Positions 37,529-61,926 of a stretch of DNA of 64,000 bases are shown here, piece after piece. Position 1 is the stretch's first letter. Each line of letters starts with the position of its first letter. The notes below the pieces were generated by a model. The model saw only the letters and a list, made by a program, of their open reading frames with translations. It had not been told where the DNA came from and ran no database searches. A program made the position numbers and the translations under genes. The DNA comes from Christensenellaceae bacterium (GTDB taxonomy: Bacteria; Bacillota; Clostridia; Christensenellales; Christensenellaceae). The stretch spans positions 682,001 through 746,000 of the forward strand of contig AP025580.1 of assembly GCA_022846035.1 (NCBI GenBank), written 5' to 3'.

Positions 37529-37584
37529 ATGTCCTCAAAAGTCCGGAAGATGTCCTCAAAAGTCTGTCCTGGGCGTGGTATGAT
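37529..37584 (+). promoter_or_regulatory. Shared control region of gene A1: two direct repeats and extended -10
   Basis: ATGTCCTCAAAAGTC occurs at 37529-37543 and again at 37550-37564, 21 bases apart (two helical turns). Fourteen bases later stands TGGTATGAT, an extended -10 (TATGAT at 37579) without a -35 match. The same layout precedes A2, A3 and A4, pointing to activator-dependent transcription. Confidence 0.78.
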
Positions 37585-37605: not shown

Positions 37606-37633
37606 AAAGAGCACAGAAACGTGCTCTTTTTTT
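37606..37633 (+). terminator. Leader terminator of gene A1
   Basis: AAAGAGCAC, a 6-base loop and GTGCTCT run into a T tract, about 15 bases after the predicted transcript start and 25 bases before the A1 start codon. Stem conserved, loop variable among the four copies. Confidence 0.82.
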
Positions 37634-37658: not shown

Positions 37659-39611
37659 ATGATGAACAATCAGTCAAAGGACGCGGACAGCAAGGCGCGG
37701 GCCCGCGCGGAACAACGCAGGAAAGAAGAGGAACGCCGGAGGAAAGCGGAAGAAGAGCGGCGCAGGCGGGAAGCGGAGCGTAAGGCGGAGGAGGAACGGC
37801 GCAGGCGGGAAGCGGAGCGTAAGGCGGAGGCGCAGCGGCGCGCTCGGGAGGAAGAACGCAAGCGGAAAGAGGAGCAAGCGCGGCAGGAGGCGCTGGAAGC
37901 GGCCCAAAGCGGCTGGCAGCCGCCGCAGGCACAAAACCGGGAGCAGGCGCGGACAGGCACAAAGCCGCCCGCCTCCCAATTGGAGCAATGGCAGCCGAAT
38001 ACCATACGTAAAGCCACGGAAAAAGACGCCCCGCAGTCGGCCCAAAGCGGTTGGCAGCCGAATACCATACGTAAAATTAGCGAAGAAGCTATGGAAAAAC
38101 AGCAGCCGAAAGAGGCGGAGACGCGGATGGCGGGCAAAGCAAAGCCGCAGGCTAGCCCATACACGAGGACGCTGATGGATAATGTGCTCGCGCATGAGGG
38201 GAATACGGACGACCCGTTTTTAATGGAACTGAACAGCGATAGCTGGGAGCGGGAATACAAGGACGGCAGGACAAAGGCGTTCAAGGACGCGGTAGAGCGG
38301 TTGGCGGACCAGCTTATGACGGGCAAAACAAAGCCGGAGGAAGCGGTTCCCGCCCGTGAGGAAAGAGAAACGGCCGTTACAAGCGGAGACCTGGCGGACC
38401 CGTTTTTGCAGGGGCTGTTTGGGGAGCAGGAACTGAAAGATGAGTTTGTGAAAGGGCAGCTTAAACAGTTCGCGCCCGCGCTGGAGAAGCGGATAGCACA
38501 GCTGCGGGAGAAAGTGAGCGGGCAGACGGAGGAGGAGCAAAAAGATACGGCGTATGGAACGAATATGGTGTATACTATGAATAAAGATGACGCGTGGCCC
38601 ACGCGGGAGGAGCTGATAACGGGCAGGACGGAGATCGATCCACGGATGGCGGGGAACGTCAGGCAGGAAATTCCGTCAAGGTTTGACGTTGGTTCGGCGG
38701 GGAATATCATGCAGCCGATGTCGGCGCAGGTGAGCAATCCGCCGCAGGGGAACGATAAAACTTCGACGGAGGCGGCGCAGTTTGGGTGGCAGCCGCCGCA
38801 GCAGGAGAGCGCGGAAGACAAAACCTCGACGGAGGGCGCGCAGTTTGGATGGCAGCCGCCGCAGCAGGAGAACGCGGAAGACAAAACCTCGACGGAGGGC
38901 GCGCAGTTCGGATGGCAGGCGCCGCAGCAAGGGAACGCGGAAACGCAGATTGTGGAGCATACATCTACTGGCGAGGAAAAAGAAACAAAGGTATCTGATA
39001 CAAAAGGAATTGGAGAGATCTCCACACAGGATATCCTTAACAAATATAACCCTTATCCAAAAGCGATGGCACCGCTGGTTATGCCGAAAGGGAATGCGGA
39101 TAATGATCCTAAAAATACTTTAGATAATAAAGCAAAAGTGGTCGGAGTTCTTGACAGGATTTTAGGTGATGACCGCCAAGGGAATCAAATCAAAGATATA
39201 ATCAGAGATGGAAATCTTAGTGGTGACCTTGCAAATGTACAGGTAATTGATATTAAAGAGTTTTCGATAAATGACAAAGAAGCACGGGAGCTGCAACAAG
39301 CTGAAGATAAACAAAGAGATGCTTTGCATGCGATCGGAACCGCTGGATTTGATGTCCTTACATATGGGATAGGCGGGAGAATAGTCGAGGGTGCTAAATG
39401 GGTATCGTCCGTTATACCTATGCTTGTCGAAAATACGATGAAAACAGAAGAAGCAACAGGCGGAGATTATATTGAGGCGACGGTCATGGTCGACGGAATA
39501 AAAAATGACAACGGAGTTACTATAGTTCCGCCGCAATATATTACATTTAGAATATGTATGAATGACCTGAATAATCAGACACTCAATTATATTATCACGA
39601 GGGATGTATAA
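37659..39611 (+). CDS. A1: constant-N/variable-C phage-region protein (candidate polymorphic toxin)
   Basis: A 650-residue protein without signal peptide. Residues 1-20 (MMNNQSKDADSKARARAEQ) are shared by A1-A4. An Arg/Glu/Lys-rich coiled coil runs to about 82. Modules with SGWQPPQ or WQPNTIRK follow, then a conserved middle (LADPFLQGLFGEQELKDEF; AYGTNMVYTM; ITGRTEIDPRMAGN) and three 21-residue repeats of DKTSTE-AQFGWQPPQQ at about 366-428. After ETQIV (about 433) the protein changes to an AT-richer, unrelated C-terminus with a Gly-rich hydrophobic stretch (about 560-590) and a beta-rich end. I do not recognise this C-terminus. A three-helix membrane protein follows 11 bases later. A toxin role is inference from architecture. 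Confidence 0.8.
   Translation: MMNNQSKDADSKARARAEQRRKEEERRRKAEEERRRREAERKAEEERRRREAERKAEAQRRAREEERKRKEEQARQEALEAAQSGWQPPQAQNREQARTGTKPPASQLEQWQPNTIRKATEKDAPQSAQSGWQPNTIRKISEEAMEKQQPKEAETRMAGKAKPQASPYTRTLMDNVLAHEGNTDDPFLMELNSDSWEREYKDGRTKAFKDAVERLADQLMTGKTKPEEAVPAREERETAVTSGDLADPFLQGLFGEQELKDEFVKGQLKQFAPALEKRIAQLREKVSGQTEEEQKDTAYGTNMVYTMNKDDAWPTREELITGRTEIDPRMAGNVRQEIPSRFDVGSAGNIMQPMSAQVSNPPQGNDKTSTEAAQFGWQPPQQESAEDKTSTEGAQFGWQPPQQENAEDKTSTEGAQFGWQAPQQGNAETQIVEHTSTGEEKETKVSDTKGIGEISTQDILNKYNPYPKAMAPLVMPKGNADNDPKNTLDNKAKVVGVLDRILGDDRQGNQIKDIIRDGNLSGDLANVQVIDIKEFSINDKEARELQQAEDKQRDALHAIGTAGFDVLTYGIGGRIVEGAKWVSSVIPMLVENTMKTEEATGGDYIEATVMVDGIKNDNGVTIVPPQYITFRICMNDLNNQTLNYIITRDV
38754..38942 (+). 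repeat. Three 63-bp in-frame repeats in A1
   Basis: Each codes for DKTSTE-(A/G)AQFGWQ(P/A)PQQ-x-(S/N)AE, 21 residues. The same unit occurs three times in A3 and about once in A2 and A4. Confidence 0.88.
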
Positions 39612-42019: not shown

Positions 42020-43315
<1,296 letters not shown>

Positions 43316-45840: not shown

Positions 45841-46284
45841 ATGCAGGCGATAGAACGGGAACTATACAGATACGGCGATTTAAAGGAGCAGGCGGGGGAG
45901 CTTGAGGAAGAGGTCAGGGAGCTGGCGGCCAAAAAGATCGAATTGGTGGACAGCATGCTGCGCGCGCCCATGATGGACAGCGTACGGGTACAGGGGGGAA
46001 CGCCGAGCGATCCGGTGTACGACGTGGTGGAAAAGCTGGTGGACGTATACGACGCGCAGATCAGGGAAAAGCTTGGGCGGATCGAGCAGCTTTATACGGA
46101 ATACGGGCGCATGAAAGAACGCCTCGACGCGGCGGGGATGAATGAATATGAGCGGCGGTATATAAAACGGCGGTATGTGGACAGAATCGCGCACGGCAAG
46201 GTGGCGGCGGAAATCGGCTATTGCGAGCGGCAGCTTACGCGCGTGCGAGCGTCGGCTTTAAAGAAACTGGCGGCGGTGCTGTGA
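45841..46284 (+). CDS. ArpU-like phage late transcription regulator
   Basis: A 147-residue protein: a long N-terminal coiled coil (about 1-35), a middle helical part, and a C-terminal region-4-like helix-turn-helix (NEYERRYIKRRYVDRIAHGK, VAAEIGYCERQLTRVRASAL). This is the layout of ArpU/DUF1492-type activators of phage late genes. Its stop codon overlaps the first direct repeat of the A2 control region, so it is the best candidate to act on those repeats. AAGGTGGG upstream. Confidence 0.78.
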   Translation: MQAIERELYRYGDLKEQAGELEEEVRELAAKKIELVDSMLRAPMMDSVRVQGGTPSDPVYDVVEKLVDVYDAQIREKLGRIEQLYTEYGRMKERLDAAGMNEYERRYIKRRYVDRIAHGKVAAEIGYCERQLTRVRASALKKLAAVL

Positions 46285-46339
46285 TGTCCTCAAAAGTCCG
46301 GAAGATGTCCTCAAAAGTCTGACCTGGGCGTGGTATGAT
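46284..46339 (+). promoter_or_regulatory. Shared control region of gene A2
   Basis: Direct repeats ATGTCCTCAAAAGTC at 46284-46298 and 46305-46319, then TGGTATGAT with TATGAT at 46334-46339. Same spacing as for A1, A3 and A4. It begins inside the stop codon of the ArpU-like gene. Confidence 0.78.
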
Positions 46340-46360
46340 GGGATTGTAGAAAAATATGTA

Positions 46361-46388
46361 AAAGAGCACAGGGATGTGCTCTTTTTTT
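46361..46388 (+). terminator. Leader terminator of gene A2
   Basis: AAAGAGCAC, loop AGGGAT, GTGCTCT and a T tract, between promoter and start codon. Confidence 0.82.
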
Positions 46389-46413: not shown

Positions 46414-48285
46414 ATGATGAACAATCAGTCAAAGGACGCGGACAGCAAGGCGCGGGCCCGCGCGGAGCAAAGCGCGCGGCGCGAGCGCGAGGCGGAACGC
46501 CGGAGGAAAGCGGAAGAAGAGCGGCGCAGGCGGGAAGCGGAGCGTAAGGCAGAGGCGCAGCGGCGCGCTCGGGAGGAAGAACGCAAGCGGAAAGAGGAGC
46601 AAGCGCGGCAGGAGGCGCTGGAAGCGGCCCAAAGCGGCTGGCAGCCGCCGCAGGTACAAAACCGGGAGCAGGCGCGGACAGGCACGCTCACGGACGCGGC
46701 GGCGAAGCTAGACGGTTTGATCGAGGGGATCAGAAACAGCGCGCGGGCAGGCACAAAGCCGCCCGCCTCCCAGTCGGAGCAATGGCAGCCGAATACCATA
46801 CGTAAAGCCACGGAAAAAGACGCCCCGCAGTCTTACGCGGAGGCGGTGTACGGCGGGGCAAAGGCGCAGCCGAAAGAGGCGGAGACGCGGATGGCGGGCC
46901 AGCTTATGGCGGGCAAAGCAAAGGCGCAGGCTGGGCCATACACGAGGACGCTGATGGACAATGTGCTCGCGCATGAGGGGGATACGGACGACCCGTTTTT
47001 AATGGAACTGAACAGCGAAAGCTGGGAGCAGGAATACAAGGACGACAGGACAAAGGCGTTCAAGGACGCGGTAGAGCGGTTGGCGGACCAGCTTATGACG
47101 GGCAAAGCAAAGCCGGAGGAAGCGGTTCCCGCCCGTGAGAAAAGAGAAACGACCGTTACAAGCGGAGACCTGGCGGACCCGTTTTTGCAGGGGCTGTTTG
47201 GGGAGCAGGAACTGAAAGATGAGTTTGTGAAAGGGCAGCTTAAACAGTTCGCGCCCGCGCTGGAGAGGCGGATAGCACAGCTGCGGGAGAAAGTGAGCGG
47301 AAACAAGGTGAGCGGACAGACGGAGGAGGAGCGGCAAAAAGATACGGCATATGGGACGAATATGGTGTATACTATGAAGAAAGACGAGGCGTGGCCCACG
47401 CGGGAGGAGCTGATAACGGGCAGGACGGAGATCGACCCGCGAATGGCGGGAAATATCATGCAGCCGATGTCGGCGGGGGCAAGCAATCCACCGCAGGAGA
47501 ACGCGAACGACAAAACCTCAACGGAGGCCGCGCAGTTTGGGTGGCAGGCGCCGCAGCAGGGGAACGCGGAAACGCAGATTGTCTTAAGTGAGGAGCCTGC
47601 CGCTTCTGGTATTAGTAGGGATGAGAGCAATCATTTTACGGCAGGTGGCTTAGGTGTAATTGTGGGAATGAAATATGACGAGCAGACAGGTATGATTTAT
47701 CATTCAAAAGGAGCGGGACTTCAAAAACATGTAGGATATGGAGATTTTCTTGATTATGCTGCAACTCTTCTGTTTGACTTGAAAAATCCTAAATCAGAAG
47801 CGACTTATGTTGATGAAAACGGACAGGAGAGGAACGTGGTGCACCGCGTCTGGATGGGAGATTATACGGGCGGCTCACTCATGAAACCTTTGCCTTATAG
47901 AATTGCAAAGGAGATGGGACAGGAATTTTCTGGATATTACGGCGGAGAAAGCAGTATTCTGTTTTCTTCACCAGAGGATGGATGGGACTGGTATCAACAA
48001 GAAGATGCATTTGAACAAAGTATTACAGTAAAAGACAAAGAGGGAAATGAGATCGTTCATTTTGATTCTGCGGAAATGTATGCGGATAAAACGTCGGATT
48101 GGGTCTATGCATGCAAGGAATCAGAACATTGGCCGGCTTATATCGAAGGGACGATCCGTGGGGATAATCAAGCGGCGCTGGAAGCGCTTGCGGGAGTGCA
48201 GTCAGAGGGAGGAATCGTTTATGGCAGAGTGGTACAGGGAAAGGACGGAATGTACTATTTGACATGGAGTTATACAATATCATGA
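46414..48285 (+). CDS. A2: constant-N/variable-C phage-region protein (candidate polymorphic toxin)
   Basis: A 623-residue member of the A family. N-terminus as in A1 with a shorter coiled coil, then modules LDGLIEGIRNSARAG, YAEAVYGGAKAQ and YTRTLMDNVLAHEGDTDDPF, the middle LADPFLQGLFGEQEL to ITGRTEIDPRMAGN, and one GWQAPQQ repeat. After ETQIV (about residue 390) it diverges abruptly from A1 into an AT-richer C-terminus: GMIYHSKGAGLQKHVGYGDF, VVHRVWMGDYTGGS and a Trp-rich end. The order of motifs loosely recalls DUF4474, which is only a suggestion. A membrane protein gene follows 27 bases later. Confidence 0.8.
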   Translation: MMNNQSKDADSKARARAEQSARREREAERRRKAEEERRRREAERKAEAQRRAREEERKRKEEQARQEALEAAQSGWQPPQVQNREQARTGTLTDAAAKLDGLIEGIRNSARAGTKPPASQSEQWQPNTIRKATEKDAPQSYAEAVYGGAKAQPKEAETRMAGQLMAGKAKAQAGPYTRTLMDNVLAHEGDTDDPFLMELNSESWEQEYKDDRTKAFKDAVERLADQLMTGKAKPEEAVPAREKRETTVTSGDLADPFLQGLFGEQELKDEFVKGQLKQFAPALERRIAQLREKVSGNKVSGQTEEERQKDTAYGTNMVYTMKKDEAWPTREELITGRTEIDPRMAGNIMQPMSAGASNPPQENANDKTSTEAAQFGWQAPQQGNAETQIVLSEEPAASGISRDESNHFTAGGLGVIVGMKYDEQTGMIYHSKGAGLQKHVGYGDFLDYAATLLFDLKNPKSEATYVDENGQERNVVHRVWMGDYTGGSLMKPLPYRIAKEMGQEFSGYYGGESSILFSSPEDGWDWYQQEDAFEQSITVKDKEGNEIVHFDSAEMYADKTSDWVYACKESEHWPAYIEGTIRGDNQAALEALAGVQSEGGIVYGRVVQGKDGMYYLTWSYTIS

Positions 48286-49875: not shown

Positions 49876-50022
49876 ATGGCAGAAAAAACAGAACCTGGCG
49901 AATTCGTAGACGAAGAAGCAGTGGTGCTTACGGAGCCGGACGACGAAAAGGAATTTTTGGATAACGGCGTGTCGGTGTCGTTTGACCGTTTCGACGACAA
50001 CGAAGAAGACAGCGACAAATAA
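49876..50022 (+). CDS. Small acidic phage protein, copy 1
   Basis: A 48-residue very acidic protein starting MAEKTEPGEFVDEEAVVLTE and ending NEEDSDK. AAGGAGG is 8 bases upstream. It lies directly before terS in both copies of the duplicated block. No family recognised; small acidic proteins in this place may be packaging accessories, but that is a guess. Confidence 0.7.
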   Translation: MAEKTEPGEFVDEEAVVLTEPDDEKEFLDNGVSVSFDRFDDNEEDSDK

Positions 50023-50043
50023 GAAAGACATTATCAATAGCGG

Positions 50044-50070
50044 GCCGCCCGTAAGGGCGGTCTTTTGTTT
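50044..50070 (+). terminator. Hairpin and T-rich tract before terS, copy 1
   Basis: CCGCCC-GTAA-GGGCGG followed by TCTTTTGTTT, 27 bases before the terS start codon. Confidence 0.72.
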
Positions 50071-50096
50071 GCAAAAAAATAGAAAGGAGTAAAAAT

Positions 50097-50531
50097 ATGA
50101 CGGACAGGCAAAAGAGGTTTTGCACGGAGTATTTAAAGGATCTGAACGCGACACGGGCGGCGATCCGCGCGGGGTACGCGCCCAAATACGCGGGCAGAAG
50201 CGCGTCTCATACCATGAAGAACGAAGAAGTGCGCGCGGAGTTAAGGCGCGCCCTTGACACGGTGAACGAAAAAAATATCGCGCGCTCGGAGGACGTCCTT
50301 GCATACTTCACCAAGCTGATGCGCGGCGAAATCTATGAGGAAAAGATCGTGATCAACGAGGAAACGGGCGAGGAGACCGTGCTGCGCCAGCCGGTCAAAG
50401 TTTCTGAACGTACGAAAGCGGCGGAGCATCTTGCCAAGTATCACAGGATTCTGACGGACAAGGCCGATCTTTCGGGCGGCGTAGACATCCGCGTGGAGCT
50501 TTGCGGCGAGATCAAGGAGTGGTCGAAATGA
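50097..50531 (+). CDS. terS: Terminase small subunit, copy 1
   Basis: A 144-residue phage DNA-recognition subunit. The N-terminal DNA-binding domain is typical: MTDRQKRFCTEYLKDLNATR, AAIRAGYAPKYAGRSASHTM. A coiled-coil central part and VSERTKAAEHLAKYHRILTD follow. AAAGGAG upstream. It overlaps terL by ATGA. It differs from copy 2 by two residues (Ile-Asn against Val-Asp in the EKIV segment). Confidence 0.93.
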   Translation: MTDRQKRFCTEYLKDLNATRAAIRAGYAPKYAGRSASHTMKNEEVRAELRRALDTVNEKNIARSEDVLAYFTKLMRGEIYEEKIVINEETGEETVLRQPVKVSERTKAAEHLAKYHRILTDKADLSGGVDIRVELCGEIKEWSK

Positions 50532-51862
50532 TTTTGAAGATACAAAAACCATATCCCAAGCAGGTGCGGTTTTTTGAGAGCAGGACGCGCTATACCGCGT
50601 ACGGCGGCGCGCGCGGGGGCGGGAAAAGCTGGGCGGCACGTACCAAAGCCGTATTGCTCGCGCTCAATTACGCGGGTTTGCAGATATTGCTTTTGCGGCG
50701 CACGCTTCCGGAACTGCGGGAAAACCACGTTAACTTCCTGCAAAAGCAGCTCGCGGACGCGGCGCACTACAAGGAGACGACCAAGGAGTTTTTGTTCCCG
50801 AACGGCAGCCGGTTAAAGCTCGGCTACTGCGATAATGAACGCGATGTACTGCAATACCAGGGGCAGGCGTACGACGTGATCTTCATGGAGGAAGCGACGC
50901 AGTTCACGGAATTCCAGTTCCAGACGCTGACCGAATCCAGCCGCGCGTCGGGGATGTGCAAGCAGCCGTTTGAGCCGCGCATGTATTTCACGTGCAACCC
51001 GGGCGGCGTGGGACATACGTGGGTCAAGCGGCTGTTCATCGACAGGCTGTACCGTGGCAGCGAACGGCCGGAGGATTATACGTTCATCCAGTCGCTTGTT
51101 TACGAGAACAAATTTTTGATGGAGCACTCGCCGGAGTATGTGCGTACGCTGGAAAACCTGCCTGAGGAACGTAAAAAGGCTATGCTGTATGGCGACTGGG
51201 ACGTATTTGACGGGCAGTATTTTTCAGAGTTTAAGCGGGATGTCCACGTGATACGGCCCTTTGCGGTCCCCGCGCACTGGCGGCGGTATGTGGCGATGGA
51301 TTATGGCCTCGATATGCTGGCGTGCTACTGGATCGCGCTTAGCGAACAGGAGGACGCTTACGTATACAAGGAACTTTACGAGAGCAACCTTGTGGTGACG
51401 GAGGCGGCGAAACGGATCACGGAGATGACGACGGAGCAGGTGTATGCGTATTATGCGCCGCCCGATCTTTGGAACAGGCATTCCGACACAGGAAAAAGCA
51501 CGGCGGAGATATTCTGTGACTGCGGCATTATGCTGGTAAAGGCACAGAATGATCGCGTGCAGGGCTGGTACAACCTGCATGAATGGCTGCGGCCGTATGA
51601 GGACGAACAGGGTATACGGAAAGCGCACCTGCGGATTTTTGACAATTGCCGCAACCTGATACGCACGCTGCCCGCGCTGCAATATGACGAAAAGAACCCC
51701 AACGACTGCGCGCGCGAGCCGCACGAGCTGACGCACGCGCCGGACGCGATCCGTTATTTTATCGCCGGACGGCCGCTTCCGGCGGAGCCGCCGGCGCGGG
51801 AAAAGCAACGCCGTACGGCCTTTGACGACCAGGTGGATAGTTTCATTGCTTTCGGCAGATAG
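50528..51862 (+). CDS. terL: Terminase large subunit, copy 1
   Basis: A 444-residue packaging ATPase/nuclease. Walker A is GGARGGGKSWAARTK near residue 25, Walker B VIFMEEATQF near 118, the coupling motif FTCNPGG near 155, and the nuclease domain begins at MDYGLDMLACYWIAL (Asp of the RNase H fold). The start at 50528 overlaps the terS stop; a longer reading is not supported. It differs from copy 2 at six positions, four of them clustered near residues 328-342. Confidence 0.95.
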   Translation: MILKIQKPYPKQVRFFESRTRYTAYGGARGGGKSWAARTKAVLLALNYAGLQILLLRRTLPELRENHVNFLQKQLADAAHYKETTKEFLFPNGSRLKLGYCDNERDVLQYQGQAYDVIFMEEATQFTEFQFQTLTESSRASGMCKQPFEPRMYFTCNPGGVGHTWVKRLFIDRLYRGSERPEDYTFIQSLVYENKFLMEHSPEYVRTLENLPEERKKAMLYGDWDVFDGQYFSEFKRDVHVIRPFAVPAHWRRYVAMDYGLDMLACYWIALSEQEDAYVYKELYESNLVVTEAAKRITEMTTEQVYAYYAPPDLWNRHSDTGKSTAEIFCDCGIMLVKAQNDRVQGWYNLHEWLRPYEDEQGIRKAHLRIFDNCRNLIRTLPALQYDEKNPNDCAREPHELTHAPDAIRYFIAGRPLPAEPPAREKQRRTAFDDQVDSFIAFGR

Positions 51863-51878
51863 GGCGCGTATCCATGCC

Positions 51879-51934
51879 ATGTCCTCAAAAGTCCGGAAGA
51901 TGTCCTCAAAAGTCTGACCTGGGCGTGGTATGAT
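51879..51934 (+). promoter_or_regulatory. Shared control region of gene A3
   Basis: Direct repeats at 51879-51893 and 51900-51914, TATGAT at 51929-51934, located 16 bases after terL stops. Confidence 0.78.
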
Positions 51935-51955: not shown

Positions 51956-51984
51956 AAAGAGCACAAGGGCGTGCTCTTTTTTTT
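51956..51984 (+). terminator. Leader terminator of gene A3
   Basis: AAAGAGCAC, loop AAGGGC, GTGCTCT and a T tract. Confidence 0.82.
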
Positions 51985-52009: not shown

Positions 52010-53641
52010 ATGATGAACAATCAGTCAAAGGACGCGGACAGCAAGGCGCGGGCCCGCGCGGAGCAAAGCGCGCAGCGCGAGCGCGAGGCGGCGCAGCGCA
52101 GGAAAGAAGAGGAACGCCGGAGGAAAGCGGAAGAAGAACGGCGCGCTCGGGAGGAAGAACGCAAGCGGAAAGAGGAGCAAGCGCGGCAGGAGGCGCTGGA
52201 AGCGGCCCAAAGCGGCTGGCAGCCGCCGCAGGTACAAAACCGGGAGCAGGCGCGGCCAGGCACGCTCACGGACGCGACGGCGAAGCTGAACGGTTTGATC
52301 GAGGGGATCAGGAACAGCGCGCGGGCAGACACAAAGCCGCCCGCCTCCCAGTCGGAGCAATGGCAGCCGAATACCATACGTAAAATTAGCGAAGAAGCTA
52401 TGGAAAAACAGCAGCCGAAAGAGGCGGAGACGCGGATGGCGGGGCAGCTTAAACAGTTCGCGCCCGCGCTGGAGAGGCGGATAGCACAGCTGCGGGACAA
52501 GGTGAGCGGGCAGACGGAGGAGGAGCAGCAAAAAGATACGGCGTATGGCACGAATATGGTGTATACTATGAATAAAGACGACGCGTGGCCCACGCGGGAG
52601 GAGCTGATAACGGGCAGGACGGAGATCGATCCACGGATGGCGGGGAACGTCAGGCAGGAAATTCCGGCAAGGTTTAACGTTGGTTCGGCTGGGAATATCA
52701 TGCAGCCGATGTCGGCGCAGGTGAGTCCGCAGCAGGGGAACGATAAAACTTCAACGGAGGCGGCGCAGTTTGGGTGGCAGGCGCCGCAGCAGGGGAACGC
52801 GGAGGACAAAACCTCGACGGAGGCCGCGCAGTTCGGGTGGCAGCCGCCGCAGCAGAAGAACGCGGAGGACAAAACCTCGACGGAGGCCGCGCGGTTTGGA
52901 TGGCAAGCGCAGGGTGCGAAAACGGCTGGCGGGAGCGACCTTGATCTCGGGATGGGACCGATCACGCAGGAGAAAGCGGACGAGGTGCGGGCGGCAGGCG
53001 CGCAAACCCTAACGCCGGAAGAAACGGGGATAAGGGACTGGCTGGAAGCGAATCCGGATGCTGTTTTACCAAACGGGATTAATGCGGAGACATTAAAGGA
53101 ATTTGAAAAATTTTTACCGGACAAGGGAACAGAGATGATTACTGTGCCGTCTAAAGATGGAGCAGACTTTCCCGACTTTACAGATAAGTTGACAAAATAT
53201 CTCGAGGAGATTGTTGAAGAATGCAGGACCGCAAAAGACGAACAGGGAGTATTGGCTTTAGCTGACTGGATCAACAAAGTAAGACCAGAGGGTGTATGGG
53301 ATCCCAAAAGTAATACAAAGCAAATTCGGGAGGTATTGGGATATAGTGAAAATGAAAAATTGCCGGATCGTTTTTATTTTAATGGACGATTGATGAATTT
53401 GGAAGAGATTGGTAATTTGATGTATGGTGTATCCGGATCGGCGATTGGCTTTTCGCCCGAGGCGCTGTTGATGGGTAGCCAGGCGGTGCAGGGATTGGTA
53501 GATTTTGGACGTAATTTCAATAATCCTGTTTTTGGTGATGAGTATTTAGAACGTTTGGAAGAGCAAAAAAGAAATGAACAAAAGGATCAAGATGTAATTC
53601 GGCGAGGAATGGACTATTATGAAAAACACTTCGAAAAATGA
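52010..53641 (+). CDS. A3: constant-N/variable-C phage-region protein, Ntox44-like C-terminus
   Basis: A 543-residue A-family protein. The start is ATG 52010, equivalent to the other copies. It lacks the YTRTLMDNVLAHEG module, passing directly from EAETRMAG to QLKQFAPALERRIAQLR. Three DKTSTE-AQFGWQ repeats follow. The C-terminus (from about 315) includes LADWINKVRPEGVWDPKS, LPDRFYFNGRLMNLEEIGNL and GVSGSAIGFSPEALLMGSQA, an order of motifs that from memory recalls the polymorphic toxin family Ntox44. A4 has the related pattern YFRVGDKVMSPEELGNYSLG. The gene overlaps the next by 23 bases. Toxin activity is inferred. Confidence 0.82.
   Translation: MMNNQSKDADSKARARAEQSAQREREAAQRRKEEERRRKAEEERRAREEERKRKEEQARQEALEAAQSGWQPPQVQNREQARPGTLTDATAKLNGLIEGIRNSARADTKPPASQSEQWQPNTIRKISEEAMEKQQPKEAETRMAGQLKQFAPALERRIAQLRDKVSGQTEEEQQKDTAYGTNMVYTMNKDDAWPTREELITGRTEIDPRMAGNVRQEIPARFNVGSAGNIMQPMSAQVSPQQGNDKTSTEAAQFGWQAPQQGNAEDKTSTEAAQFGWQPPQQKNAEDKTSTEAARFGWQAQGAKTAGGSDLDLGMGPITQEKADEVRAAGAQTLTPEETGIRDWLEANPDAVLPNGINAETLKEFEKFLPDKGTEMITVPSKDGADFPDFTDKLTKYLEEIVEECRTAKDEQGVLALADWINKVRPEGVWDPKSNTKQIREVLGYSENEKLPDRFYFNGRLMNLEEIGNLMYGVSGSAIGFSPEALLMGSQAVQGLVDFGRNFNNPVFGDEYLERLEEQKRNEQKDQDVIRRGMDYYEKHFEK
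52742..52911 (+). repeat. In-frame 63-bp repeats in A3
   Basis: Three units of DKTSTE-AAQFGWQ(A/P)PQQ-x-NAE, the last incomplete. Confidence 0.85.
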
Positions 53642-55791: not shown

Positions 55792-55938
55792 ATGGCAGAA
55801 AAAACAGAACCTGGCGAATTCGTAGACGAAGAAGCAGTGGTGCTTACGGAGCCGGACGACGAAAAGGAATTTTTGGATAACGGCGTGTCGGTGTCGTTTG
55901 ACCGTTTCGACGACAACGAAGAAGACAGCGACAAATAG
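55792..55938 (+). CDS. Small acidic phage protein, copy 2
   Basis: Identical in its 48 residues to the copy at 49876, with TAG instead of TAA as stop owing to a one-base deletion at the end. Same AAGGAGG ribosome site. Confidence 0.7.
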   Translation: MAEKTEPGEFVDEEAVVLTEPDDEKEFLDNGVSVSFDRFDDNEEDSDK

Positions 55939-55958
55939 AAAGACATTATCAATAGCGG

Positions 55959-55985
55959 GCCGCCCGTAAGGGCGGTCTTTTGTTT
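55959..55985 (+). terminator. Hairpin and T-rich tract before terS, copy 2
   Basis: CCGCCC-GTAA-GGGCGG followed by TCTTTTGTTT, as in copy 1. Confidence 0.72.
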
Positions 55986-56011
55986 GCAAAAAAATAGAAA
56001 GGAGTAAAAAT

Positions 56012-56446
56012 ATGACGGACAGGCAAAAGAGGTTTTGCACGGAGTATTTAAAGGATCTGAACGCGACACGGGCGGCGATCCGCGCGGGGTACGCGCCCAA
56101 ATACGCGGGCAGAAGCGCGTCTCATACCATGAAGAACGAAGAAGTGCGCGCGGAGTTAAGGCGCGCCCTTGACACGGTGAACGAAAAGAATATCGCGCGC
56201 TCGGAGGACGTCCTTGCATACTTCACCAAGCTGATGCGCGGCGAAATCTATGAGGAAAAGATCGTGGTCGACGAGGAAACGGGCGAGGAGACCGTGCTGC
56301 GCCAGCCGGTCAAAGTTTCTGAACGTACGAAAGCGGCGGAGCATCTTGCCAAGTATCACAGGATTCTGACGGACAAGGCCGATCTTTCGGGCGGCGTAGA
56401 CATCCGCGTGGAGCTTTGCGGCGAGATCAAGGAGTGGTCGAAATGA
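56012..56446 (+). CDS. terS: Terminase small subunit, copy 2
   Basis: A 144-residue second copy of the small subunit, complete and in frame, differing at two residues in the EKIVVDEETG segment. Overlaps terL by ATGA. Both copies look functional, which is unusual for a single prophage. Confidence 0.93.
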   Translation: MTDRQKRFCTEYLKDLNATRAAIRAGYAPKYAGRSASHTMKNEEVRAELRRALDTVNEKNIARSEDVLAYFTKLMRGEIYEEKIVVDEETGEETVLRQPVKVSERTKAAEHLAKYHRILTDKADLSGGVDIRVELCGEIKEWSK

Positions 56447-57777
56447 TTTTGAAGATACAAAAACCATATCCCAAGCAGGTGCGGTTTTTTGAGAGCAGGA
56501 CGCGCTATACCGCGTACGGCGGCGCGCGCGGGGGCGGGAAAAGCTGGGCGGCACGTACCAAAGCCGTATTGCTCGCGCTCAATTACGCGGGTTTGCAGAT
56601 ATTGCTTTTGCGGCGCACGCTTCCGGAACTGCGGGAAAACCACGTTAACTTCCTGCAAAAGCAGCTCGCGGACGCGGCGCACTACAAGGAGACGACCAAG
56701 GAGTTTTTGTTCCCGAACGGCAGCCGGTTAAAGCTCGGCTACTGCGATAATGAACGCGATGTACTGCAATACCAGGGGCAGGCGTACGACGTGATCTTCA
56801 TGGAGGAAGCGACGCAGTTCACGGAATTCCAGTTCCAGACGCTGACCGAATCCAGCCGCGCGTCAGGGATGTGCAAGCAGCCGTTTGAGCCGCGCATGTA
56901 TTTCACGTGCAACCCGGGCGGCGTGGGGCATACGTGGGTCAAGCGGCTGTTCATCGACAGGCTGTACCGTGGCAGTGAACGGCCGGAGGATTATACGTTC
57001 ATTCAGTCGCTTGTTTACGAGAACAAATTTTTGATGGAGCACTCGCCGGAGTATGTGCGTACGCTGGAAAACCTGCCTGAGGAACGTAAAAAGGCTATGC
57101 TGTATGGCGACTGGGACGTATTCGACGGGCAGTATTTTTCAGAGTTTAAGCGGGATGTCCACGTGATACGGCCCTTTGCGGTCCCCGCGCACTGGCGGCG
57201 GTATGTGGCGATGGATTATGGTCTTGATATGCTGGCGTGCTACTGGATCGCGCTTAGTGAACAGGAGGACGCTTACGTATACAAGGAACTTTACGAGAGC
57301 AACCTTGTGGTGACGGAGGCGGCGAAGCGGATCGCGGAGATGACGACGGAGCAGGTGTATGCGTATTATGCGCCGCCCGATCTTTGGAACAGGCATTCCG
57401 ACACAGGAAAAAGCACGGCGGAGATATTCAGCGAATGCGGTATCATGCTGGTGAAAGCGCAACTGGGCCGCGTGCAGGGATGGTACAACCTGCATGAATG
57501 GCTGCGGCCGTATGAGGACGAACAGGGCATACGGAAAGCGCACCTGCGGATTTTTGACAACTGCCGCAACCTGATACGCACGCTGCCCGCGCTGCAATAT
57601 GACGAAAAGAACCCCAACGATTGCGCGCGCGAGCCGCACGAGCTAACGCACGCGCCGGACGCGATCCGTTATTTTATCGCCGGACGGCCGCTTCCGGCGG
57701 ATCCGCCGGCGCGGGAAAAGCAACGCAGGACAGCCTTTGACGACCAGGTGGACAGTTTCATTGCTTTCGGCAGATAG
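56443..57777 (+). CDS. terL: Terminase large subunit, copy 2
   Basis: A 444-residue copy with intact Walker A (GGARGGGKSW), Walker B and nuclease residues. Differences from copy 1 are Thr to Ala in KRIAEMTTEQ, EIFSECGIMLVKAQLGR against EIFCDCGIMLVKAQNDR, and Asp for Glu in LPADPPAR. It is followed by the A4 control region, and is the copy nearer the portal gene. Confidence 0.95.
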   Translation: MILKIQKPYPKQVRFFESRTRYTAYGGARGGGKSWAARTKAVLLALNYAGLQILLLRRTLPELRENHVNFLQKQLADAAHYKETTKEFLFPNGSRLKLGYCDNERDVLQYQGQAYDVIFMEEATQFTEFQFQTLTESSRASGMCKQPFEPRMYFTCNPGGVGHTWVKRLFIDRLYRGSERPEDYTFIQSLVYENKFLMEHSPEYVRTLENLPEERKKAMLYGDWDVFDGQYFSEFKRDVHVIRPFAVPAHWRRYVAMDYGLDMLACYWIALSEQEDAYVYKELYESNLVVTEAAKRIAEMTTEQVYAYYAPPDLWNRHSDTGKSTAEIFSECGIMLVKAQLGRVQGWYNLHEWLRPYEDEQGIRKAHLRIFDNCRNLIRTLPALQYDEKNPNDCAREPHELTHAPDAIRYFIAGRPLPADPPAREKQRRTAFDDQVDSFIAFGR

Positions 57778-57793
57778 GGCGCGTATCCATGCC

Positions 57794-57849
57794 ATGTCCT
57801 CAAAAGTCCGGAAGATGTCCTCAAAAGTCTGTCCTGGGCGTGGTATGAT
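57794..57849 (+). promoter_or_regulatory. Shared control region of gene A4
   Basis: Direct repeats at 57794-57808 and 57815-57829, TATGAT at 57844-57849, 16 bases after terL stops. Confidence 0.78.
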
Positions 57850-57870: not shown

Positions 57871-57898
57871 AAAGAGCACAGGGGCGTGCTCTTTTTTT
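57871..57898 (+). terminator. Leader terminator of gene A4
   Basis: AAAGAGCAC, loop AGGGGC, GTGCTCT and a T tract. Confidence 0.82.
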
Positions 57899-57923: not shown

Positions 57924-59633
57924 ATGATGAACAATCAGTCAAAGGACGCGGACAGCAAGGCGCGGGCCCGCGCGGAGCAAAGCGCGCAGCGCGAGCGCGA
58001 GGCGGCGCAGCGCAGGAAAGAAGAGGAACGCCGGAGGAAAGCGGAAGAAGAACGGCGCGCTCGGGAGGAAGAACGCAAGAGACGCGAGGCAGAGCAGCGC
58101 AAGCGCAGGCCGAAAGAGGCGGAGACGCGGATGGCGGACCAGCAAAAACCGGAGGCTGGGCCATACACGAGGACGCTGATGGACAATGTGCTCGCGCATG
58201 AGGGGGATACGAACGACCCGTTTTTAATGGAGTTAAACCGCGATAGCTGGGAGCAGGAATACAGGGATGGCAGGACAAAGGCGCTGAGGGGTGCGGTAGA
58301 ACGGCTGGCGGACGATCTGATGGCGGGCAGAGCAAAGCCGGAGGAAGAGAGCGGCAAGCAGGGAAACTGGACGGCTAAAGACCTTGCGGACCCGTTCTTG
58401 CAGGGGCTGTTTGGGGAGCAGGAACTGAAAAATGAGTTTGTGAAAGGGCAGCTTAAACAGTTTGCGCCCGCGCTGGAGAGGCGAATAGCGCAGCTTCGGG
58501 ACAAGGTGAACGGACAGGCGGAGGAGCCGCAGCAAAAAGATACGGCGTATGGAACGAATATGGTGTATAATACGAATAAGAACGGCATACAGCAGGCGGA
58601 CGGTGGAATAAAAACGCTGTCCGGCGCATATAAAGATAATGAGGGGCAAAGCCTGATACAGCCGATGTCGGCGCAGGTGAGCGGTCCGCAGCAGGGGAAC
58701 GCGGAGGATAAAACCTCAACGGAGGCAGCGCAATTCGGATGGCAAACGCCGCAGCCAAATGCAGAGGACAAAGAGGCTTCGCTGGAGAATGCACAATTCG
58801 GACGGCAAACGCCGCAGGAAGGGGATGCGGAGGCAAGCAATACGCAGACTTATGCGGAGGCGGTGTATGGCGGAGCAAAGGCACAGGGCCAGCCGAAGCG
58901 AGGATATGGGGCAGCGCCAACGGAATTAAAACAGATGTATGATATTTTGGGCGATGGAGATACGGGATCAGGTATTTCATTTGATAACATTGAAAAATCG
59001 TTTGGAAAAGATATACATTTCGAGATGGACGATTATGGAAAGGTGATTGGAGACTATCGGGAAGCATTCGAAAACAGAATAAATGAACAGTATCCAGACA
59101 TTAGCCCAAAAGATAAAGAGATTTTGCTTGAAGGAACTTTGTTGCTGCTTAAGGCAGAATTTGGAAAGCAAAACGCCGATCCTGAAAAAATTATTGACGT
59201 AACCGATCAATATCGGCAGATGGTTACGAATAGCCTGAATAATCCATTCTGGCAAAGGGAGATGCTGGGAGTTTTTGGAGATAAGGGGGTATATTACCTA
59301 AAGGACGAACCGAAAGCAATTCAGAAGCTGTGTGGGGATCAGATTCCTGAGGAAATTATGGACGAAGCGCTCAGAATTGGCGGTGAAAAGGGCGTCAATT
59401 ATCTGATGCAACAGGGATATGGATATTTCCGCGTAGGCGATAAAGTCATGAGTCCGGAAGAATTGGGTAATTATTCCTTGGGCGTGATTGCGACGGGGCA
59501 TGGGCATTCGAGAGCAGAAGGCTATGAGGCGGCAAACATGGATAGATGGAGGATGGCTGGTTCGGAGTATGGCGAGCTATATGACAAATATTACCAGACG
59601 ATGGGTATGAACGATTTGCAGAAATGGCAATAG
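57924..59633 (+). CDS. A4: constant-N/variable-C phage-region protein (candidate polymorphic toxin)
   Basis: A 569-residue A-family protein. The first 50 or so residues match A3. The coiled coil then passes into RRPKEAETRMADQQKPEAG and the modules YTRTLMDNVLAHEGDTNDPF and LADPFLQGLFGEQELKNEF. The middle is diverged (NTNKNGIQQADGG), with about two degenerate GWQ/GRQ repeats and YAEAVYGGAKAQ. The AT-rich C-terminus (from about 330) ends GYGYFRVGDKVMSPEELGNY, a His-rich GHGHS and ELYDKYYQTMGMND. Two fragments of homologous C-termini lie downstream at 60172 and 60473. The next gene starts before or just after its end. Confidence 0.8.
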   Translation: MMNNQSKDADSKARARAEQSAQREREAAQRRKEEERRRKAEEERRAREEERKRREAEQRKRRPKEAETRMADQQKPEAGPYTRTLMDNVLAHEGDTNDPFLMELNRDSWEQEYRDGRTKALRGAVERLADDLMAGRAKPEEESGKQGNWTAKDLADPFLQGLFGEQELKNEFVKGQLKQFAPALERRIAQLRDKVNGQAEEPQQKDTAYGTNMVYNTNKNGIQQADGGIKTLSGAYKDNEGQSLIQPMSAQVSGPQQGNAEDKTSTEAAQFGWQTPQPNAEDKEASLENAQFGRQTPQEGDAEASNTQTYAEAVYGGAKAQGQPKRGYGAAPTELKQMYDILGDGDTGSGISFDNIEKSFGKDIHFEMDDYGKVIGDYREAFENRINEQYPDISPKDKEILLEGTLLLLKAEFGKQNADPEKIIDVTDQYRQMVTNSLNNPFWQREMLGVFGDKGVYYLKDEPKAIQKLCGDQIPEEIMDEALRIGGEKGVNYLMQQGYGYFRVGDKVMSPEELGNYSLGVIATGHGHSRAEGYEAANMDRWRMAGSEYGELYDKYYQTMGMNDLQKWQ

Positions 59634-61654: not shown

Positions 61655-61680
61655 GACCGTTCAAAAGAACGGTCTTTTTT
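61655..61680 (+). terminator. Terminator directly upstream of the portal operon
   Basis: GACCGTTC-AAAA-GAACGGTC followed by six T, 22 bases before the next start codon. Confidence 0.9.
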
Positions 61681-61701
61681 ATGCAAAAAAAGAAAGGAAA
61701 G

Positions 61702-61926
61702 ATGGAAATGGAAATTGCAGGAGTGATCGTGGGAATGATTTTAGCGTTCTTTTCAGGCGCGTATGTGCGCAAGCCATTTGCGTGGCGGCGGAGCAGGCAG
61801 CAGCAGGGCGCGCTGCCGCAGGAAGAAACGCCGCGCTCAGGGCACAAGCGGGACAAGGTCGCGCAGCTCAATAACCTTTTGAGTTATACGGGCAGGGCGC
61901 AGGCGGAAGAAGATTTTGAGAACTAA
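61702..61926 (+). CDS. Small membrane protein upstream of portal
   Basis: A 74-residue protein with one N-terminal membrane helix (about 3-21) and a basic, Arg/Gln-rich tail. The ATG at 61702 is chosen because GAAAGGAAAG lies just upstream; an ATG at 61681 sits at the end of the terminator. It precedes the portal by 21 bases, so it belongs to the head operon. Function unknown. Confidence 0.62.
   Translation: MEMEIAGVIVGMILAFFSGAYVRKPFAWRRSRQQQGALPQEETPRSGHKRDKVAQLNNLLSYTGRAQAEEDFEN

Follow-up and report, generated by a model that had tools for sequence, protein, structure and literature searches.

A gene for a 147-residue ArpU-like protein (45841..46284, + strand, ATG start) lies in a 64,000-nucleotide (nt) stretch of a Christensenellaceae genome (contig AP025580.1, positions 682,001 to 746,000, forward strand; hereafter the window, numbered from its first letter). 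It ends with a TGA codon (46282-46284) that runs directly into a pair of direct repeats and the promoter of a toxin-like gene, A2. This arrangement raises the question of whether the protein reads the repeats at the end of its own gene and, if so, what it does there. The original prediction, made from the sequence of the window, held that the stop codon overlaps the first base of the first repeat, that the gene is the only late-activator candidate in the window, and that its product activates four A promoters. The comparisons described below make it very probable that the protein is a prophage late-gene regulator that binds phased half-sites and starts late transcription at the A cassettes and at a capsid operon. 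Regulator and sites belong to a known kind of system, of which this is a fresh case; the frequent presence of a terminator in the leader is the aspect that merits attention.

The sequence TGTCCTCAAAAGTC occurs twice behind the gene, at 46285-46298 and 46306-46319, with the copies 21 base pairs (bp) apart, and the TGA ends on the A just before the first copy (46285). When the repeat is taken as ATGTCC..., its first base is the last base of the stop codon, and the overlap claimed in the original prediction is thus borne out by the coordinates; the exact repeat GATGTCCTCAAAAGTC shares two bases with the TGA. The two 14-bp repeats make up a probable A2 binding site (46285..46319, +) in which GTC/GTCC elements recur every 10-11 bp. 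Behind it lies the extended -10 of the A2 promoter, TGGTATGAT (46331..46339, +), without a good -35. Replication-initiation-like and 3D-domain genes are followed by the regulator gene and then directly by the A2 promoter.

The same 35 bp are found before three other A genes, at 37530..37564 (A1), 51880..51914 (A3), and 57795..57829 (A4), all on the + strand. Within the window, the 14-mer has 8 exact copies, which form four pairs, and 12 matches with up to three mismatches (3.9 expected; none of 100 shuffles reaches 12). Across the whole genome of 2,768,446 bases, the 35-bp pair has 4 matches with up to three mismatches, all of them exact, all within the window, and each before an A gene, while a reversed control pattern has none. 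A looser pattern detects a fifth, diverged site at genome position 750002, which corresponds to window coordinate 68002 and lies beyond the window's end. A matrix scan of 118 kb on both strands returns exactly five sites, at 37530, 46285, 51880, 57795, and 68002, with scores of 117-122 against -24 for the next best; the matrix was trained on these five sites and three from a sister genome, which makes only the score gap informative. The viral contigs searched lack the exact 35-bp site, and the 17 other family genomes searched lack it even with up to three mismatches allowed.

All five sites share one layout. GTC/GTCC repeats are followed, after 14 bp, by an extended -10 (TGG and TATGAT) with no -35. 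The -10 leads into a conserved stretch ending in AAAAAT, then a hairpin with a T run, a Shine-Dalgarno sequence, and the gene. The four A sites are identical across 35 bp, with variable leaders and gene starts, and they are copies of one cassette rather than sites of four independent origins. Their identity can stem from cassette duplication. A reading in which the repeats are a non-functional by-product of that duplication draws on the homology of the four cassettes and on the tandem copy in the terminase region, and it is very improbable: the fifth site shares the layout yet differs in sequence and precedes an unrelated gene, and other phages carry phased repeats at the same place. The gene directly behind the fifth site encodes a 74-residue protein with paired cysteines, and farther on lie genes for a major head protein (PHROG 422, expectation value (E) 2.8e-44), a structural protein, a tail protein, and an endolysin. 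With such genes behind it, the fifth site resembles a classical late promoter of structural genes, and the four A sites would be further members of its regulon. Upstream of this promoter, a gene for a 1075-residue protein (64051-67278), whose C-terminus gives a sub-threshold PBECR1 nuclease match (12 bits, cut-off 27.6), is followed by a 134-residue gene.

A sister genome of the same genus (G005) has a regulator that is 85% identical and carries three sites of one shared sequence, with 5 of 35 bases changed relative to the source genome. One of them lies directly behind its regulator gene, and another lies ~9.1 kb upstream of that site. The sites could also have been homogenised by gene conversion between cassettes. 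The G005 regulator's TGA stops one base short of the ATGTCC repeat, which makes the exact overlap of stop codon and repeat in the window inessential and probably incidental.

Phased repeats also occur at the ends of related regulator genes. The loci compared comprised 10 family-level homologues and 90 PHROG 36 matches from a class sample, of which 30 were supplied by the search and 60 were picked by hand, mainly for stronger matches in a frame of regulator size; dropping 6 near-duplicates from these 100 left 94. This selection left out many other PHROG 36 matches, among them some stronger ones interrupted by several stops within the alignment. PHROG 36, which also rings on sigma-like frames, was used in place of a class-wide alignment profile; a search with the latter was set aside, having returned 165 of 391 genomes, mainly through frames of ~240-300 residues matched only near their end and read as sigma factors. 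Direct repeats with at least 8 of 9 bases matching, counted in a 130-nt region around the stop codon, are enriched over dinucleotide shuffles at lags of 10 (30 of 94 loci, 2.3 expected), 11 (16, 2.1 expected), 20 (12, 1.9 expected), and 21 (13, 2.5 expected). The next lags are 9 (7 loci, 2.1 expected), 22 (6, 2.7 expected), and 33 (6, 1.6 expected). Two control regions show lags of 10, 11, and 20 in 1 to 5 loci (1.9 to 2.7 expected), and the downstream control has no lag above 6 (2.6 expected). In 16 of 42 family loci, the phased pair shares bases with the stop codon. A promoter motif fitted by expectation-maximisation from a seed made by eye (TRTGnTAtAATggTATnRTgAAAAA) reaches a log-likelihood of 382, compared with at most 86 (mean 73) for 10 mononucleotide-shuffled sets, and a good extended -10 (motif score of at least 8) stands at the 3' end of the regulator gene in 53 of the 94 loci. 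The TATnRT and A-rich stretch right after the -10 (46340-46354 at A2, for example) is conserved among distant late promoters. A lambda-like pause element is one candidate for this stretch, with a spacing unlike that of lambda.

If the regulator reads the repeats, its recognition helix should predict the half-site. This covariation was measured with the best phased 8-mer as the half-site, the second of two measures tried. The 58 loci with a motif score of at least 7.5 among the 94 all pass a 110-230 length filter, and 42 of them entered the test; the 16 without a significant phased pair were dropped. Half-site similarity tracks recognition-helix similarity after N-terminal and scaffold similarity are removed (partial r 0.178, 0 of 5000 permutations), and it does so when only the more distant pairs are kept (684 of 861; partial r 0.171, 0 of 2000). 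Similarity of the N-terminus gives -0.011. An 11-residue window slid along the alignment, with whole-protein similarity removed, produces a single clear peak of 0.194 on EEMGYSERTVY (0 of 300), with values of about -0.10 to 0.06 elsewhere, and the largest difference is seen at the S and R that open the recognition helix. Similar helices go with similar half-sites: VSLRTVHRIH is paired with TGGCACGG and VSMRTVHRLH with TTGGCACA, YSIRAVYKIH with AGTGCAGT and YSIRAIYKLH with TGCAGTAA, and both YSIQHIYRMH and YSLQHVFRLH with ATGAGAGT. Such pairs are a start toward a recognition code. The covariation is the best evidence that the protein would read the 3' end of its own gene, with the caution that its measure was chosen second.

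The covariation also bears on whether another factor, such as a host sigma factor or an unseen phage protein, reads the repeats, with the ArpU-like gene adjacent merely by operon order. At 1e-8, the PHROG 36 profile has 3 matches in the source genome, the regulator gene among them, and the two others could provide such a factor. A protein search of the source genome with the regulator finds no second homologue at E 0.01, and half-site similarity follows the recognition helix of the adjacent regulator rather than its other parts, which leaves this alternative quite improbable. With some of the window's open reading frames (ORFs) scanned, the gene is likely, though not certain, to be the only late-activator candidate in the window, as originally proposed.

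The predicted structure of the protein is in keeping with a DNA-binding role. PHROG 36 (transcriptional regulator) is its best family match (E 4.2e-14, residues 1-145), in a collection that has no curated cut-offs and with a profile that also rings in host genomes such as that of B. subtilis. The AlphaFold model (mean predicted local distance difference test score 86.6) has long helices at residues 2-40 and 58-97 and three short helices, giving an N-terminal helical hairpin and a C-terminal domain of roughly residues 88-147. This C-terminal part superposes on the -35 domain of SigD, sigma region 4, at 1.2 Å over 60 residues with Z 9.0, although the comparison tool itself notes that such a Z does not count as high when models are helical. 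A sequence match to region 4 of SigF and SigG agrees with this placement, and in the model the C-terminal part is a DNA-binding domain with the sigma-region-4 fold. The structural matches of the first half are coiled coils and other long helices of unrelated proteins, and the matches listed for the protein as a whole, from a general search that was not directed at Q proteins, are sigma-4 domains and unrelated long helices. Unlike sigma factors, the regulator has no visible region 2, and its site consists of phased half-sites rather than a single -35. A tblastn search of 50,697 phage records with the regulator returns nothing at E 0.01, and a direct search of genome contigs for homologues yields 35 pattern stretches with none confirmed. 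The regulator is filed only in PHROG 36, though it is said here to work like the late regulators of the Ltr kind.

Several further results weigh against the protein being a late regulator that binds these repeats, in addition to the modest Z and the shared origin of the four A sites. A first covariation test, with a 9-nt window in the 45 nt upstream, was not significant (partial r 0.055, 211 of 2000 permutations; 0.075, 125 of 2000), and the phased 8-mer measure was chosen after this outcome. Inside the genes, the repeat control shows lag 21 in 8 loci against 1.4 expected, probably from coiled-coil heptads, 21 nt being seven codons; there, lag 12 occurs in 6 loci (2.2 expected), lag 30 in 5 (2.1 expected), and the remaining lags in at most 4. 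Promoter motifs with a score of at least 8 are missing at 41 of the 94 loci, and two loci (L008 and L009) lack the layout of repeats and promoter. The protein falls below the cut-offs of the ArpU family TIGR01637 (18.5 bits, E 0.0018; cut-off 43.1), DUF1492 PF07374 (13.8 bits, E 0.067; cut-off 21.5), and the RinA family TIGR01636 (13.2 bits, E 0.076; cut-off 31.9), and Foldseek with the model finds nothing at E 0.001. Its isoelectric point is 6.64 overall and 10.16 for residues 88-147, so that the whole protein is not basic, unlike the late regulators that the available portion of PMC13123087 calls small and basic. At one of the two loci without the layout (L008, in genome G003), a basic, coiled-coil, A-like ORF lies directly behind the ArpU-like gene, with neither repeats nor promoter motif.

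Taken together, these observations would fit a mechanism in which the sigma-region-4-like domain binds helically phased GTCC-type half-sites, spaced every 10-11 bp, that start at the end of the regulator's own gene and recur before the other A genes and the capsid operon. Bound there, the regulator would replace the missing -35 contact at the extended -10 and allow RNA polymerase to start late transcription. It would switch on the four toxin-like A cassettes, with the A2 unit presumably continuing into the terminase genes, and, acting at the fifth site beyond the window's end, the genes for head, tail, and lysis proteins. The prediction that it activates the four A promoters is supported by the fold, the phased repeats, the covariation, and the sister sites; the number of sites is five rather than four, and "activates" may be an incomplete description, because a terminator-like hairpin stands behind all five promoters.

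These leader hairpins start 21-24 nt after the -10. The one at A2 (46362..46383, +), which has a T run, is terminator-like at -12.4 kcal/mol in our own scan, and its counterparts lie at 37606..37629 (A1), 51956..51979 (A3), and 57872..57893 (A4), all on the + strand. A consensus terminator tool makes no + strand call at 46360-46385 and calls only the - strand; we think that the tool lets the stem absorb part of the T run. In the family, by the same scan of ours, a hairpin with a T run lies within 110 nt after the motif at 42 of 53 promoters, compared with 2.7 expected from shuffles, and control regions give 4 of 53 when placed 400 nt beyond the stop, 4 of 27 when placed 700 nt beyond it, and 0 of 53 inside the gene. 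A same-strand ORF preceded by a ribosome-binding site follows the hairpin within 400 nt at 36 of the 42 loci and within 31 nt at 17 of them, which in those 17 leaves little room for another promoter. The 20 loci searched against Rfam, covering all five leaders here and 15 relatives, match no family.

At the leader hairpin, polymerase would pass either unaided or with the regulator's help. The first of these possibilities corresponds to a pure activator of initiation, with a hairpin that is a weak or non-functional terminator or a stabiliser of the 5' end of the mRNA. Direct repeats near the -35 position and the absence of a -35 element fit recruitment, the published phi13 work treats ltr as an activator in the available text of PMC13123087, and the consensus tool's lack of a + strand call at A2 points the same way. 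The frequency of the hairpin after family promoters argues otherwise, as does its retention at the diverged fifth site and in the sister genome, where it starts 20 nt after the -10 with a changed stem sequence; moreover, a stabiliser of RNA alone needs no T run. Pure activation is accordingly a tenable account with somewhat less than an even chance of being correct.

Alternatively, the hairpin might merely insulate, ending early-operon transcription and, being near-symmetric, antisense transcription, with no role for the late RNA. The - strand of the A2 hairpin scores as a terminator too. The position of the hairpins speaks against it, since none of the 53 loci has a terminator between stop codon and promoter, where 43 of the gaps are long enough for one, whereas in 42 it follows the promoter. 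At the fifth promoter, a terminator upstream (67957-67981, -17.7 kcal/mol in the folded stretch) is present besides the downstream one, which makes ending the previous operon a poor reason for the latter, and late RNA has to pass the hairpin regardless. Insulation is therefore unlikely.

The remaining possibility is that the regulator may also be a Q-like antiterminator. In this proposal, which we put forward tentatively and rate no higher than pure activation, the ArpU/RinA/Ltr late regulators would be promoter-loaded antiterminators, perhaps activators too: a sigma-4 mimic would dock at the phased repeats and travel with RNA polymerase past the leader terminator and, here, also past a terminator before the terminase genes. 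Such a mimic would be predicted to contact polymerase at the beta flap, next to the channel through which RNA exits, a plausible place for an antitermination effect. The terminator before terS1 (50042..50063, +) is strong, at -18.0 kcal/mol, and lies ~34 nt from the ATG with no room for a promoter; the same terminator precedes terS2 (55957..55978, +) as part of a tandem duplicate. Given this spacing, the terminase genes must be transcribed through the terminator from upstream. Against antitermination stands the presence of separate A3, A4, and capsid promoters, for which there would be no need if modification at A2 carried polymerase past every terminator.

A further hairpin with a T run (61655..61674, +) lies before a small portal-side gene (61702) and was at first a candidate for another promoterless terminator. 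It was dropped because TGATACTAT, a possible remaining extended -10, lies just before it, and the pass-through argument rests on terS only. The small portal-side gene (61655-61926 region) has a homologue in another genome (G001, locus L007; 48% identity over 67 residues, E 1e-16) that lies directly behind the regulator's leader hairpin. This gene order suggests that the hairpin at 61655 may be a former late leader, parted from its regulator by the A and terminase genes, which may have been inserted into it.

The closest known systems are phi11 RinA, TP901-1 Alt, and phi13 Ltr. As in the window, their repeats lie at or just behind the 3' end of the regulator gene, their promoter lies upstream of the packaging genes, and a terminator-like hairpin precedes the first late gene. 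Repeat spacing is 11 bp in phi11 and TP901-1 and 18 bp in phi13, compared with 10-11-bp elements here. All three late leaders have been studied experimentally. The hairpin of the phi11 rinA-terS leader (-13.2 kcal/mol) lies ~80 nt after the -10, and that of the phi13 ltr leader (-12.1 kcal/mol) lies ~40 nt after it. TP901-1 differs in that its hairpin (-12.0 kcal/mol) is several hundred nt from the alt promoter, just before terS and behind two transfer RNA (tRNA) genes. Unlike these systems, the prophage has five scattered promoters, four of them before toxin-like cassettes. In phi13, deletion of the repeats or mutation of ltr abolished promoter activity, according to the accessible part of PMC13123087, and repeats at the target promoter, by which that text characterises regulators of the Ltr kind, are present at the five sites here. 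The same source reads the P23 reporter data as activation, which would count against antitermination, with a reporter extending to +50 (PMC13123087, available text). By our own sequence count, +50 is about the end of the phi13 leader hairpin, and the reporter consequently does not decide between activation and antitermination.

Factors that act at a promoter and carry polymerase past terminators are known from other phages and bacteria. In the portion of PMC7969949 consulted, P. aeruginosa AlpA is reported to be an antiterminator rather than an activator, recognising promoter sites, binding polymerase, and allowing bypass of downstream intrinsic terminators. Lambda Q and AlpA share with the present locus the layout of a positive regulator at the promoter and intrinsic terminators right downstream, with binding of the regulator here being predicted. 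AlpA is proposed to bind between -10 and -35, whereas the phased repeats lie upstream of the -10. A terminator between promoter and targets, as would be looked for with a Q-like protein, occurs as a predicted hairpin at all five sites and in 42 of 53 family loci. Among the titles and abstract openings of the literature searched, no antitermination proposal for ArpU, RinA, or Ltr regulators was found. Reporter assays of late regulators do not necessarily distinguish increased initiation from reduced early termination, and if late leaders usually carry a terminator, the question of activation versus antitermination spans a large family.

The genes under the A promoters look like polymorphic toxins, with each cassette carrying a late promoter. 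The A1 (37659..39611), A2 (46414..48285), A3 (52010..53641), and A4 (57924..59633) genes, all on the + strand, encode proteins with similar N-terminal and different C-terminal regions, A2 for example having a constant N-terminal and a variable C-terminal region; the A3 start is taken from the conserved MMNNQSKD, and its listed ORF opens at 51971. The C-terminus of A3 is an Ntox44 bacterial toxin domain (PF15607, E 7.7e-19), the only match above cut-off for the A proteins in Pfam and NCBIfam; against PHROGs, only a weak match to PHROG 1376 is seen, in A4. Phage-encoded polymorphic toxins of the MuF type and others (compare PMC5576092) likewise combine constant N-terminal with variable C-terminal parts. 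Unlike in those toxins, each A copy has its own late promoter, and the prophage regulon would thereby wire four toxin-like cassettes into the late programme. Small genes behind the A genes are candidate immunity genes.

The A2 cassette lies between the regulator gene and the terminase genes, and A3 and A4 each lie behind a copy of terL. The terS1 and terL1 genes (50097..51862, +) and their duplicates terS2 and terL2 (56012..57777, +) belong to a tandem duplication of terS, terL, and the next A promoter (50022-51880 and 55937-57795, spacing 5915), with repeat blocks of 300 and 221 nt that are 100% identical. The prophage thus has two pairs of terminase genes.

Two minor observations concern RNA genes near late leaders. 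In the TP901-1 late leader (L154), the two tRNA genes between the alt promoter and terS are ARAGORN predictions at 2135-2209 and 2289-2376. An apparent transfer-messenger RNA beside two other loci (L013 and L122) was unconfirmed by ARAGORN and was dropped.

A distance of 8.8 kb separates the A1 site from the A2 site downstream of it, and in this interval an enolase-like gene (identified by eye; 42035-43315) stands between the A1 cassette and a phage repressor-like gene. An enolase-like gene also lies upstream in a contig with the same regulator (L048). With the upstream site of the sister genome likewise ~9 kb away, one toxin-like cassette is located outside the usual phage gene order.
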